Shown one piece after another: positions 7,213-49,309 of a stretch of 64,000 bases of DNA. The stretch is taken from NCBI GenBank assembly GCA_016866755.1, contig VGLK01000003.1:62001-126000 (forward strand). The letters run 5' to 3'. Below the pieces are notes generated by a model. That model saw nothing but the letters and a program-made list of their open reading frames with translations. It ran no database searches and was not told where the DNA came from. Source of the stretch: Candidatus Saccharimonadota bacterium. GTDB taxonomy: Bacteria; Patescibacteriota; Saccharimonadia; Saccharimonadales; Saccharimonadaceae. Each line of letters starts with the position of its first letter. Positions within the stretch are counted from its first letter, which is position 1. The translations under genes were made by a program, and so were the position numbers.

Positions 7213-7258
7213 TCTTATCATTATACCTTTTTTTAAAATTATGGCGTATAATAACGAT

Positions 7259-7801
7259 ATGAAAAAAGCTTATGGTTTTACCGTAGTTGAACTTGCGGTG
7301 GTAATTGCCGTAATTGGCATTTTATCTGCTGTTACGTTAGTAAGTTATCGCTCAATTCAAATTCAAGCGCGCGATAACGCCATAAAAACCGCGGTTGCTC
7401 AGGCAGCCGACGCCCTTAAACTTCGGGCGAGCCAAAAAAATGAACGCGTCAATGTCCCCGGCACTGGTGACGGAAGTATCGCCGGCAACACCACAGCTGG
7501 TACTGGTCAAGGCTGGTTTCAATCGGGCACCTATGCCAACCCCATTGAAGATCGTTTAATTAGCGAAGGTTTTTTGCCTCCAGATTTTTCTAAAGAGTTA
7601 AAATCTTCTACCGTCAGTAACAATGGTCGAATACTCATGTTTTATTTATGCGAGAACGGAAGAAGCGCTGTGTATGCTAGCCTTAACGAGAACTCAGGTA
7701 AAAACGACGCCATTGCCACTGCTCAGCGATATAATTGCTACCCCACTAACCCCTCTACACCATTCAACTCCTATAATATGAACTACATAAGAGTGTTTTA
7801 A
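7259..7801 (+). CDS. Type IV pilin-like protein (prepilin)
   Basis: The about 180-residue protein has a short basic leader MKKAYG followed by FTVVELAVVIAVIGILSAV. This is the class III signal G|F-T-x-x-E with a hydrophobic N-terminal helix, cleaved and N-methylated by a prepilin peptidase. The globular part has one Cys pair region (YLCENG, RYNCYP). The start is placed at 7259 and not at the upstream ATG 7241 because TATAAT (7247-7252) sits 6 bases before it. The next pilin gene follows after 2 bases. Confidence 0.85.
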   Translation: MKKAYGFTVVELAVVIAVIGILSAVTLVSYRSIQIQARDNAIKTAVAQAADALKLRASQKNERVNVPGTGDGSIAGNTTAGTGQGWFQSGTYANPIEDRLISEGFLPPDFSKELKSSTVSNNGRILMFYLCENGRSAVYASLNENSGKNDAIATAQRYNCYPTNPSTPFNSYNMNYIRVF

Positions 7802-7803
7802 TC

Positions 7804-8355
7804 ATGAGTATGCCCCGCTCTTCATATCAGGCCTTCACTATCGTAGAACTCCTGATTGTAATTGTGGTTATAAGTATTTTAGCAGCCATAACCGTCACTG
7901 CCTACAACGGTATTCAAAGTAGAGCTCATGATAGTACAATCAAAAGCGACCTTCGATCATTTTATCAATCTGTTCAAATTAGCAATACCAAAGAAGGTGT
8001 ATATCCTAAATGGTCTAGTGAGCTAACCGCCCTCTCCTTTAAGGCGTCGCGCGGCTCGTACAATACCGATAACTTCAATCTTGTATATTGCCCTCCGTAT
8101 CCATACGATTCATCAACCAGTTTTGCGGTGCTTGGACGTAGTAAATCGGGTACAATTTTTTATCATGGCACAGATGGTAACGGTATTTATAACGGTAGCT
8201 ACACCATGAACGATTATGTTGATATCTGTCTTGATCTTACCGATAAAAATAATGTTTTTGCCGGTAATTATGCCGCCGACCCGCAGCTATACGTAACATC
8301 GGCTGGCTATTCTCGATCAGCCAATCCGCAGTGGAATGCTTGGGTAGCAAATTAA
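7804..8355 (+). CDS. Type IV pilin-like protein, C-terminal Trp-rich
   Basis: The 183-residue prepilin has the leader MSMPRSSYQA before FTIVELLIVIVVISILAAI. Ala replaces the usual Gly at the -1 position, which may alter peptidase processing. The C-terminus ends PQWNAWVAN, resembling the end of the pilin at 46772-47254 (NENWATWVN). It is cotranscribed with the preceding pilin (2-base gap) and followed by a strong terminator. It is probably a minor pilin or pseudopilin. Confidence 0.83.
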   Translation: MSMPRSSYQAFTIVELLIVIVVISILAAITVTAYNGIQSRAHDSTIKSDLRSFYQSVQISNTKEGVYPKWSSELTALSFKASRGSYNTDNFNLVYCPPYPYDSSTSFAVLGRSKSGTIFYHGTDGNGIYNGSYTMNDYVDICLDLTDKNNVFAGNYAADPQLYVTSAGYSRSANPQWNAWVAN

Positions 8356-9486: not shown

Positions 9487-10473
9487 CTATTCCCAGTCGA
9501 AACCATGCCCAAAATGACCATAGCGAGCGGTCTGCTCGTAAAGCGGGCGCGTTAAGTTAAGAAAGTTTGTTATACCGCGCGGCGAAAGATCGTAACCATT
9601 AATTTTTTCGGCTTCACCATCTATAATTACCGTTGCTTCTAGCGGCTGAACCACGCCAATAGCGTAAGCAAGACGCACATATACCTCGCTTGCTTTGCGC
9701 TGCTGCAAATAATCGACGGCAATTTTTCGCGCCATATACGCAGCACTGCGATCAACCTTAGAGGCATCTTTACCGCTAAATGCCCCGCCGCCAACCGGAA
9801 TTCGAGGCCCGTAATTATCGACAGCTAATTTACGCCCAGTTAGGCCGGCATCGGCATCAAAACCTCCTACCTTCCAGTCGCCCGCAGGGTTAATGTAGAG
9901 TTTAATATTTTCGATTGATTCACACGGAACTACCAATGGTTCGTCGCGTAACCAATTTTTTACCGCCAACGCCAACTCTTCGGTACTAGCATGCTGAAAA
10001 CTTGCTACAGCACTATGCACTTTACCATTTACCACCGTAACTTGCGTTTTGCCATCATGCGGCCACAACGCATATAGGCTTTGATTGAGCTTTCGCGCCA
10101 GTACCACTTCAAGCGGCAATAACTCCGGTGTGTCGCTACAGGCATAACCAATCATTATTCCTTGATCGCCCGCGCCACCTATATCAACACCTTGAGCAAT
10201 TTCGGGGCTCTGGGCAGCGATATTTTCAATTAACTTTATGTCTTTACCCGCTAGTCGTGCTACAATATCGGCCACAGATACTATAGCGTTCGAAGTAACT
10301 TCGCCCGTTACAAATATCGTGCCGTGCCCTCCAGCTACATCTACAGCTACTCGTGCCCCCGGATCTTGCGTTAAGTGCGCATCTAATATTGCGTCGCTAA
10401 TTTGATCACAAATTTTATCGGGATGCCCCGGACTTACGCTTTCGGCGGTTTTAAATTCTTGATACACAGACAT
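9487..10473 (-). CDS. metK: S-adenosylmethionine synthetase MetK
   Basis: MetK makes SAM from ATP and methionine. Seen are SPGHPDKICDQISDA, GAGDQGIMIGYA (the hexapeptide loop region) and GGGAFSGKDASKVDRSAAY. The 328 residues are shorter than the usual about 385-400, mainly in loops, which is common in reduced genomes. The start at 10473 is preferred over 10500 because AGAAGGGAG lies 9 bases before it. A SAM-I riboswitch precedes it, matching its product. The many methyltransferases in the window depend on it. Confidence 0.96.
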   Translation of the reverse strand: MSVYQEFKTAESVSPGHPDKICDQISDAILDAHLTQDPGARVAVDVAGGHGTIFVTGEVTSNAIVSVADIVARLAGKDIKLIENIAAQSPEIAQGVDIGGAGDQGIMIGYACSDTPELLPLEVVLARKLNQSLYALWPHDGKTQVTVVNGKVHSAVASFQHASTEELALAVKNWLRDEPLVVPCESIENIKLYINPAGDWKVGGFDADAGLTGRKLAVDNYGPRIPVGGGAFSGKDASKVDRSAAYMARKIAVDYLQQRKASEVYVRLAYAIGVVQPLEATVIIDGEAEKINGYDLSPRGITNFLNLTRPLYEQTARYGHFGHGFDWE

Positions 10474-10528
10474 AAAAAAGCTCCCTTCTATCTGCCCCAA
10501 GAAGCCAATAAGAATAATTAGAGTAACT

Positions 10529-10624
10529 ATATCTTTCCTGGTTCTCAGGCTGGAGTTAGCACCTTACTTGTACGGCAGGTTGCTGATGGATCGTCGGGCC
10601 AGTCCCTCACCATACTCTTGATAT
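10529..10624 (-). promoter_or_regulatory. SAM-I (S-box) riboswitch controlling metK
   Basis: On the minus strand the S-box core is seen in order: GAGGGACTGGCCC, then GACGATCCATCAGCAACC, AAGGTGCTAACTCCAG, CCTGAGAACCAGGAAAGAT. The P1 ends ATATC and GATAT close it. Downstream, CTTCT (in GGCTTCTTGG) can pair with AGAAG of the Shine-Dalgarno AGAAGGGAG, followed by TTTTTT and the ATG, so repression could act on translation or early termination. A promoter TTGCAA-17-TACACT (about 10633-10675) lies just upstream. Confidence 0.93.
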
Positions 10625-10698
10625 TATTTTGTATATGTTTAGTGTAGCGAAATAACCAGCCTTTTGCAAATACAGTCACGCAAATAAACAGTTTAAAA

Positions 10699-45832: not shown

Positions 45833-46387
45833 TTATACAGTCAGAATGTCTTTCTCTTTTGTTTTAAATGCGGCGTCAATTAAAGCGCTCATTTCACTCA
45901 TTAGCCCGTCAATTTCTTTTTCAATCAATTTTATGTCGTCTTCAGAAAGTTCTTTGTTATCTTTTGCTCGTTTAGCATCTTTTAGTGCATCTTGACGAAC
46001 ATTACGCAGAGCAATTCGAGCCTCTTCTACCTTTTCGCCGGCTTGTTTTACCATTTGTTTACGTCGCTCTTCGGTAAGAGCCGGAACAGGCACGCGTACA
46101 ATGCGACCGTCATCACTTGGATTAAAATCTTGGCCGCGACTTTCGCGAATAGCGGCCGAAATTACCGCCACCATGCTTGGGTCGAAAGGTGTAACCGTAA
46201 TAAGCTGAGCCTCTGGAGCGTTAACGTTAGCAACTTGGTTAAGCGGCATTTTTGTGCCATACGCCTCAACCTCAATGCCATCAAGCATACCCGCATGCGC
46301 ACGACCGGTACGAACTTTTTTCAACTCTTCTTCAAAATGCGCCACGGCCTTTTTCATCTTATCTTCATATTGCGCTGTATCAAACAT
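45833..46387 (-). CDS. frr: Ribosome recycling factor
   Basis: The 184-residue protein has the RRF helices: MKKAVAHFEEELKKVRTGRA, the hinge VEAYGTKMPLNQVANV and RIVRVPVPALTEERRKQMVK. It splits post-termination ribosomes with EF-G. It is normally after pyrH; here it follows a terminator and the GC-rich ORF. Confidence 0.97.
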   Translation of the reverse strand: MFDTAQYEDKMKKAVAHFEEELKKVRTGRAHAGMLDGIEVEAYGTKMPLNQVANVNAPEAQLITVTPFDPSMVAVISAAIRESRGQDFNPSDDGRIVRVPVPALTEERRKQMVKQAGEKVEEARIALRNVRQDALKDAKRAKDNKELSEDDIKLIEKEIDGLMSEMSALIDAAFKTKEKDILTV

Positions 46388-46421
46388 AAATCCTCGTTTC
46401 CTATCTTTACTCTTAGTATAG

Positions 46422-46459
46422 CAAAAATATAACCCCGCACGAATGGCTTTCGTACGGGG
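46422..46459 (-). terminator. Terminator of the GC-rich small ORF transcript
   Basis: CCCCGTACGAA and TTCGTGCGGGG (10 pairs plus one mismatch) close a short loop, followed by TTATATTTTTG on the minus strand. It ends the unit at 46430-46720 before frr. Confidence 0.82.
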
Positions 46460-46460
46460 G

Positions 46461-46483
46461 CATTGAGGGTTTCGGTCTCAATG
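46461..46483 (-). other. 7-bp hairpin upstream of the terminator
   Basis: CATTGAG (46461-46467) and CTCAATG (46477-46483) are perfect inverted copies with a 9-base loop. It adjoins the terminator stem, so the 3' end of this transcript has two successive hairpins. Confidence 0.5.
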
Positions 46484-46537
46484 ACTAACGGTAGCGCACC
46501 TAGACTCTATCTAGATAAACGGCGCCATGTACGCAGC

Positions 46538-46660
46538 TCAGCTGCTGGACTTGCCGCCACCCCCCTTGTCCGAACCCTGGTTCGGGCTCTTGTCGGAGTC
46601 CGAACTGCTCTTGGGCTGGGGACGGAGGGAGTGCTTGCCGTAATACATTTTGAATGCCAT
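46538..46660 (-). CDS. Candidate 40-residue Ser/Lys/Gly-rich protein in a GC-rich island
   Basis: An ATG (complement of 46658-46660) opens 40 codons ending in TGA. The peptide begins MAFKMYYGKHSLRPQPKS, continues with Ser/Asp/Lys and ends in a Gly run and KSSS: basic, probably disordered, with no membrane helix. By hand count 32 of 39 codons after the start end in G or C, unlike its neighbours. The unit has a TATAAT (46725-46730) and its own terminator. A structured RNA (CCGAACC/GGTTCGG stem inside) is the alternative. No family is recognised. Confidence 0.55.
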   Translation of the reverse strand: MAFKMYYGKHSLRPQPKSSSDSDKSPNQGSDKGGGGKSSS

Positions 46661-46771
46661 GATGACCTACTCTCTTGCTCCATATAACGTAGCGAGGCAC
46701 GGGTGTATCTCTAGGTAACTACAAATTATATGTAAAGAATATTAAAGCATATTAGGTATAATAATGCAAGG

Positions 46772-47254
46772 CTAATTTACCCAAGTTGCCCAGTTTTCAT
46801 TCCATACGCCATTGTGCTGAGGATTTGTTGTTGATAGCCCGATTTGACTACAAATATCATACCCACCTTGGTTTGCCGGCGTTGCAGAAAGTCCACCGCT
46901 AGACATATATTTAAAATGGTTTCCCGATTTTGATTTTGCATAAATAAGGTATTCATCGGTTGTGGCATTAACGCAGTAGCGAGCGCTACGTTGCTGCACG
47001 TCACGCCCATGAGCATCACGGCTAAACTTTATCCCCATATCGGCCGCCAGGGTTGCTGGGTACAAGCCATGCACCGCCTTATACTGAGAAACAATTCCGT
47101 GAAAATTACGCAAATCACTCTGCACCGCCGTGTCGTTAGCCCTATTTTGAATGCCGTTATAGGCAACAATTGTAACGGCCGCTAAAATTGCAATTACCAC
47201 AATTACAACAAGCAGCTCAACAATTGTAAAACCAGCGTTCGTTTGTTTTTTCAT
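46772..47254 (-). CDS. Type IV pilin-like protein, C-terminal Trp-rich
   Basis: The 160-residue prepilin has a leader MKKQTNAG and FTIVELLVVIVVIAILAAV, the class III signal peptide. The mature part has two Cys residues (RYCVNA, DICSQ) and ends NENWATWVN, like the pilin at 7804-8355. It occupies the position where pyrH would be expected in the rpsB-tsf-frr block. Confidence 0.86.
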   Translation of the reverse strand: MKKQTNAGFTIVELLVVIVVIAILAAVTIVAYNGIQNRANDTAVQSDLRNFHGIVSQYKAVHGLYPATLAADMGIKFSRDAHGRDVQQRSARYCVNATTDEYLIYAKSKSGNHFKYMSSGGLSATPANQGGYDICSQIGLSTTNPQHNGVWNENWATWVN

Positions 47255-47343: not shown

Positions 47344-47940
47344 TTATTCGCTTACACCTAGCTCAATACGCTTAAACTGGCCAACTACAATGTTTTCGCC
47401 AAGTTTTGCAATGTTTTCTTTTACGTGCTGTTCAACAGTCTTTTTGTCGTCAAGAATATACGCCTGGCTCATAAGCACTTGCTCAGCAAAATGCTTTTTA
47501 ACCTGACCTTCAACAATCTTTTCAGCAATTTCAGCTGGCTTGCCTTCATTCTTAACACGCTCTAACGCTTCTTCTTTTACGCGGTTGTATTCGTCGGCGG
47601 GAATATCGCCTTCTGATACATAGCGTGGGCTCATGGCAGCAACCTGCATAGAAAGCTCATGAGCTAGCTGCTTAAAGTCGTCAAGTCGTGCCACAAAATC
47701 GGTTTCGCAGTTTAGCTCTAACACCACACCAATGCGACCACCGTGTACGTAGCTGTCAATTACACCTTCGCGGGCTTCACGGTCGCCTTTTTTCTCGGCA
47801 CGCGTAAGACCTTTTTTGCGCATTTCTTCTAGCGCTTTGTCAAAATCACCGTCGGCTTCTACTAGGGCTTTCTTAGCATCAGTCAGGCCAACACCAGTTA
47901 GCTCTTTAAGTTTTTTAATGTCGTCTACAGAAATCGCCAT
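47344..47940 (-). CDS. tsf: Elongation factor Ts
   Basis: The 198-residue short EF-Ts has the N-terminal UBA-like domain VDDIKKLKELTGVGLTDAKKA, then GRIGVVLELNCETDFVARLDDF. It is the guanine nucleotide exchange factor of EF-Tu. The length matches the short form found in some bacteria (Thermus-like). It lies 5 bases after rpsB. Confidence 0.96.
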   Translation of the reverse strand: MAISVDDIKKLKELTGVGLTDAKKALVEADGDFDKALEEMRKKGLTRAEKKGDREAREGVIDSYVHGGRIGVVLELNCETDFVARLDDFKQLAHELSMQVAAMSPRYVSEGDIPADEYNRVKEEALERVKNEGKPAEIAEKIVEGQVKKHFAEQVLMSQAYILDDKKTVEQHVKENIAKLGENIVVGQFKRIELGVSE

Positions 47941-48784: not shown

Positions 48785-49309
48785 TTACCAGTTTGCGGCA
48801 CCCAGTGACCAGTACCCCCAGCCACGAAACTGCGGGCTTCCAGCCGTCCATCTATTAGGATCTTGCAACTCTGTTTTTGTAGAAACAAAATCATACTCAT
48901 ATTTTGGGACCGCCTGCCCATTTGCTGCCAAACGAATAAGTTTATACTCTCGCCCATTCGAACGGTAAAGGATTGTATTATACCAAGTGCTAGTTTTATC
49001 GCCGTACTCTACATCGGTTGGCATTTTTAAGTACGGTGTCAGCTCTGGTACAAAATTAGTACCATCACGAGCCAAACGACTCCATGTATCGCTACCGTTA
49101 CCACTCGGTGGATAACTGCCGTTTTTGGCATAGTATTGCTTTACGGCTAAGTTAATAAGGCGCAAATTTGCATCAGTTTGGCTAGCGTAAGAACGATTTT
49201 TATACGCGTTATATCCCACTACCGAAATTAGCGCCAACACCACAATAACCGCCGCTACAACCATCAGTTCAACTATCGTAAACCCCTTATTTGCTCGCTG
49301 GATTTTCAT
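48785..49309 (-). CDS. Type IV pilin-like protein
   Basis: The 174-residue prepilin has leader MKIQRANKG and FTIVELMVVAAVIVVLALI. The mature domain has the KQYYAKNGSYPPSGNGSDTW motif common in pseudopilins and ends YWSLGAANW. It has no Cys. TACTAT lies close to the ATG (5 bases), so it is probably a single-gene unit next to rpsB-tsf. Confidence 0.85.
   Translation of the reverse strand: MKIQRANKGFTIVELMVVAAVIVVLALISVVGYNAYKNRSYASQTDANLRLINLAVKQYYAKNGSYPPSGNGSDTWSRLARDGTNFVPELTPYLKMPTDVEYGDKTSTWYNTILYRSNGREYKLIRLAANGQAVPKYEYDFVSTKTELQDPNRWTAGSPQFRGWGYWSLGAANW

Follow-up and report, generated by a model that had tools for sequence, protein, structure and literature searches.

On the minus strand between the tsf and frr genes of a Saccharibacterium with a genome of 848 kb, there is a small GC-rich unit that looks like an orphan gene of a GC3-rich accessory class, and not like a replacement of pyrH or a demonstrated structured RNA. 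In our opinion, this unit is, on balance, an accessory mini-gene of horizontally exchanged type, presumably expressed and encoding a basic disordered peptide. An open reading frame (ORF), its codon composition, a terminator, a variable site and the features of the class were all observed for the unit, which lies in a window of 64 kb (the whole stretch of DNA analysed) belonging to contig C3. The genome was assigned to this lineage through a homologue found at the same locus beside ileS in a named Candidatus Saccharibacteria MAG.

Structure of the unit

The order of genes on this strand is rpsB, tsf, a pilin-like gene, the GC-rich unit and frr. The following features were located by window position; the two promoter-like boxes, the leader, the Shine-Dalgarno-like site and the stop were read from the sequence itself.

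47344-47940, minus strand: tsf, the upstream border of the variable interval
46772-47254, minus strand: pilin-like gene, PF07963 (prokaryotic N-terminal methylation motif), upstream neighbour
46725-46730, minus strand: -10-like TATAAT, presumed promoter, without a recognisable -35
46661-46724, minus strand: leader
46670-46665, minus strand: Shine-Dalgarno-like GTAGGT, 5 nt before the ATG
46669-46667, minus strand: in-frame stop TAG, which sets the start of the ORF
46538-46660, minus strand: 40-aa orphan ORF (GC3 0.82, codon composition)
46433-46483, minus strand: double hairpin, intrinsic terminator (z = -5.3, terminator scan)
46415-46423, minus strand: extended -10-like TGCTATACT directly after the terminator, candidate separate promoter of frr
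45833-46387, minus strand: frr (ribosome recycling factor), called as an ORF, downstream neighbour

The ORF encodes MAFKMYYGKHSLRPQPKSSSDSDKSPNQGSDKGGGGKSSS, a low-complexity peptide with a basic N-terminal part and a tail rich in Ser, Lys, Gly and Asp. The double 3' hairpin described in a first-pass annotation of this DNA proved to be real: its first hairpin (46483-46461, CATTGAG...CTCAATG) is followed by the second (46460-46433) and by a U-rich tail (46432-46423), and the terminator scan gave a match at 46459-46433. The promoter described there was not confirmed: a perfect TATAAT is present at 46730-46725, but it has no recognisable -35 partner, and scanning for promoters detected no two-hexamer one where the unit begins. 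The TGCTATACT element, situated 28 nt before the ATG of frr and having a near-identical copy (22 of 23 nt) at G000:C5:70260-70282, is likely a separate promoter for frr.

According to the explanation favoured here, a small monocistronic accessory gene, placed in the variable cargo site that separates tsf from frr, would be transcribed leftward from a local promoter and translated into a 40-residue basic and probably disordered cytoplasmic peptide, while the double-hairpin terminator would end the transcript and insulate frr. The unit would be a member of a GC3-rich, mostly orphan class, probably of horizontal origin. It may be guessed, from the basic stretches of the peptide rather than from homology, that its role consists in binding nucleic acid or another acidic partner.

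Coding potential

The presence of a 40-residue basic ORF was confirmed; once the ATG is left out, 32 of its 39 codons have G or C in third position (0.82). The GC content of third positions compares with 0.45 at first and 0.53 at second positions, and this GC3 periodicity gave P = 0.00075 in a permutation test. The sharply deviating composition was confirmed as well, local GC being about 0.55-0.57, whereas the window as a whole has 0.447. When synonymous codon choice was compared between a model of GC-rich accessory genes and one of native genes, a log-likelihood ratio of +18 over 39 codons was obtained in favour of the former, a value that partly re-measures GC3 and is not independent of it, because the class model was trained on genes selected for high GC3. 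This corresponds to +0.47 per codon against a native mean of -0.46 (sd 0.09); such a score was reached by none of 5000 dinucleotide shuffles, and in a sample of 359 kb the ORF ranks second of 158 short non-genic ones.

The main rival to an accessory gene is a remnant or chance ORF: a cargo gene would have decayed or been rearranged, leaving GC-rich debris in which the 40-codon frame is not under selection; we consider this possible but rather unlikely. The length of the ORF is ordinary, since 33% of dinucleotide shuffles match it on that strand, the low-complexity peptide is devoid of detected homologues, and the tsf-frr site is variable. Moreover, a 38-aa ORF of similar GC3 on the antisense strand has a codon score of +15.8, nearly as high, because third positions are common to both strands. 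However, the frame is preceded by a Shine-Dalgarno-like sequence and opens just past an in-frame stop, the terminator that follows it is intact, and its codon choice is in phase with the expected frame. The leader, the Shine-Dalgarno-like site and the terminator favour the minus strand. The structure predicted for the peptide (mean pLDDT 68, pTM 0.13) contains no secondary structure, is of low confidence and is uninformative.

RNA structure

A structured RNA was also raised in the first-pass annotation; under this explanation, which we find improbable, the unit would be a non-coding sRNA that has a promoter and a terminator of its own. This explanation would agree with the fold of the whole unit (z = -3.2 to -3.5), the possession of a terminator and the lack of protein homologues. 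The excess stability, however, resides in the terminator pair (z = -5.3); the unit without the terminator gave z = -1.6, not above shuffles, and the ORF alone z = -0.6, so that neither the internal GC hairpins nor the structured RNA suggested earlier were borne out. The phase-specific GC3 is not what is expected of an RNA gene. No covariance model of Rfam 15 reached the gathering score for the unit, a permissive Rfam scan returned chance-level matches only (mir-150 and ClpQY_promoter, both below the cut-off), and a tRNA/tmRNA search found none. The 68-nt terminator tail is the only part of the unit for which related DNA was found: it shares 76% identity with the tail behind a GC-rich orphan gene (G000:C2:2179-2463), and the changes in the stems between these two tails keep the pairing.

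The idea of a leader peptide and attenuator controlling frr, prompted by a short ORF and then a terminator directly upstream of this gene, is very improbable in view of the extended -10-like element past the terminator, the lack of a recognisable counterpart in the other tsf-frr intervals examined and the lack of an evident alternative antiterminator pairing in general folds of the unit.

Elsewhere in the window, a SAM riboswitch (RF00162, 70 bits) was found at 10526-10627 (minus strand), upstream of a metK-looking gene at 9487-10500.

The tsf-frr interval

Many bacteria have a canonical rpsB-tsf-pyrH-frr cluster. Here, rpsB, tsf and frr are retained in the usual order, but pyrH lies elsewhere in this lineage, and the insert therefore does not replace it. 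The assignment of the unit to a "pyrH slot" was wrong, as pyrH is situated at G000:C3:47808-48500, about 60 kb away; its placement between tsf and frr is correct, except that the pilin-like gene intervenes before tsf. In relatives, pyrH and frr are far apart or on other contigs, and no pyrH was found in the tsf-frr intervals examined. Displacement or replacement of pyrH was rejected on these grounds.

The frr gene was found in 143 of 150 relatives. Among the 50 genomes, including the one studied, in which tsf is upstream of frr within the stretch compared, the interval is shorter than 250 bp in 18 and contains inserts in 32. These inserts are mostly unrelated and comprise pilin-like genes (in two relatives, L022 and L036), RecF-like ORFs on the opposite strand and assorted hypothetical genes, with two GC3-rich genes among them (GC3 0.83 and 0.71). 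Since the inserts differ between genomes, the tsf-frr interval (window 47344-46387) is a variable cargo space throughout the family, and the pilin-like gene adjoining the unit belongs to it. The unit resembles the cargo of such single-gene sites of Saccharibacteria in that unrelated genes occupy the same interval (32/50), but the cargo of relatives mostly consists of longer ORFs (about 90-410 aa), none of them with the 40-aa peptide. Pilin-like FTIVEL genes stand singly between core genes at three places in the window, 7241-8355, 46772-47254 and 48785-49309.

Homologues and origin

The search for homologues with both peptide and DNA that had been proposed for this unit gave no credible relative of the ORF in the databases searched. 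About 800 genomes of Patescibacteria (overlapping sets of 394 from the family, 380 from the phylum and 200 relatives) yielded no credible homologue of the peptide, and there was no credible match to it in Pfam, PHROGs, NCBIfam and PDB. DNA and protein searches of phages and plasmids with the unit found none, and exact degenerate patterns of the peptide N-terminus were absent from GTDB, where one exact pattern was used, and from IMG/VR. Weak protein matches in relatives and the phylum (E 0.001-0.1) look spurious, being mostly interrupted by stops, aligned to the low-complexity tail or located in unrelated long ORFs; the best of them (G585, E 0.00126) lies inside a locus encoding a MutM-like protein.

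As for the transfer from a high-GC actinobacterial host suggested in the first-pass annotation, the composition and the class-like codon choice fit a high-GC gene pool, but no homologue pointing to an actinobacterial donor was found in the databases searched. A fresh transfer of each gene from a host is argued against, because the only detectable relatives of the related GC-rich genes belong to Saccharibacteria and are GC-rich at 35-40% identity. A high-GC gene pool within reach of Saccharibacteria is plausible.

Two other possibilities were rejected. An integron cassette was not supported: no integron integrase exceeded the TIGR02249 cut-off, below which there was a generic tyrosine recombinase and nothing else, and flanking direct repeats were not found. 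A type I toxin did not agree with the hydrophilic nature of the peptide, which is rich in K, S, G and D, is not hydrophobic and membrane-spanning, and was modelled without secondary structure. The unit has more in common with horizontally acquired ORFan genes: atypical GC and codons, no detectable homologues, a variable site between core genes and predicted expression signals of its own. It differs from them in its very short, low-complexity product, in that no donor was identified and in the terminator tail shared with another orphan.

GC3-rich accessory genes

In the 359-kb sample, which includes the window, there are about ten genes whose GC3 lies in the range 0.6-0.99, the mean of native genes being 0.41:

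Contig C2: G000:C2:897-1430, 1668-2030, 2179-2463, 94028-95860, 96232-97107 and 144293-144727
Contigs C3 and C5: G000:C3:43127-43927; C5:17347-17778, 66375-66776 and 70389-71294

Most of them have no Pfam match; a weak LGFP repeat was recognised in one and a TasA-like match in another. No paper describing this class was found in the open-licence literature. Compared with native genes, these genes have considerably stronger 3' hairpins (median -40.1 against -18.8 kcal/mol, P = 5e-7), a comparison uncontrolled for composition, where high GC itself eases hairpin formation; the same was found in a relative, G023 (P = 2e-5, composition likewise uncontrolled). A hairpin reaching -25 within 130 nt after the stop is present in 13% of native and 91% of class genes. 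Like the class, the unit departs widely from native genes in GC3 and codon choice and has a strong 3' hairpin (-27.7 kcal/mol, inside the class range). A position between core genes together with an own promoter would be a further mark of the class; the location of the unit fits this, while of a promoter only the -10-like box was seen.

Two pairs of homologues were found in which both members are GC3-rich at 35-40% protein identity. These are a TasA-like pair with GC3 values of 0.99 and 0.87, both members being located beside ileS, and an LGFP-like pair with values of 0.91 and about 0.69. The loci concerned are L065:3001-3519 and L042:897-1430 for the first pair, and L114 and L046:16232-17107 for the second. 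For an LGFP-like GC-rich gene, no phage or plasmid relatives were found. Genes of this class are apparently gained and exchanged horizontally. The persistence of GC richness in such pairs is not obviously accounted for by a one-time transfer with subsequent amelioration, and it could be explained by repeated supply or selection.

Taken alone, the unit is one more mini-gene, and the wider pattern in two genomes of Saccharibacteria is a better lead. It is conceivable, although we regard it as doubtful, that GC3-rich genes form a compartment of their own in Saccharibacteria, in which host-like codons and strong 3' hairpins are actively maintained instead of ameliorating, and that the unit is its smallest member. 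If so, either selection would be at work or the genes would be constantly re-supplied from a shared high-GC pool linked to high-GC actinobacterial hosts or shared phages. The genes of the compartment would often encode exported proteins, the smallest product here being the 40-aa peptide. If the pattern is general, it would mark an exchangeable gene set of these parasites, possibly directed at the host, and its origin would become testable.

As a separate observation, the relative G023 contains a gene cluster (G023:C1:148807-152388, L122) with GC3 of 0.82-0.91, the products of which resemble, by eye, an E1/ThiF-like protein, a JAB-like peptidase and a ubiquitin-like protein.
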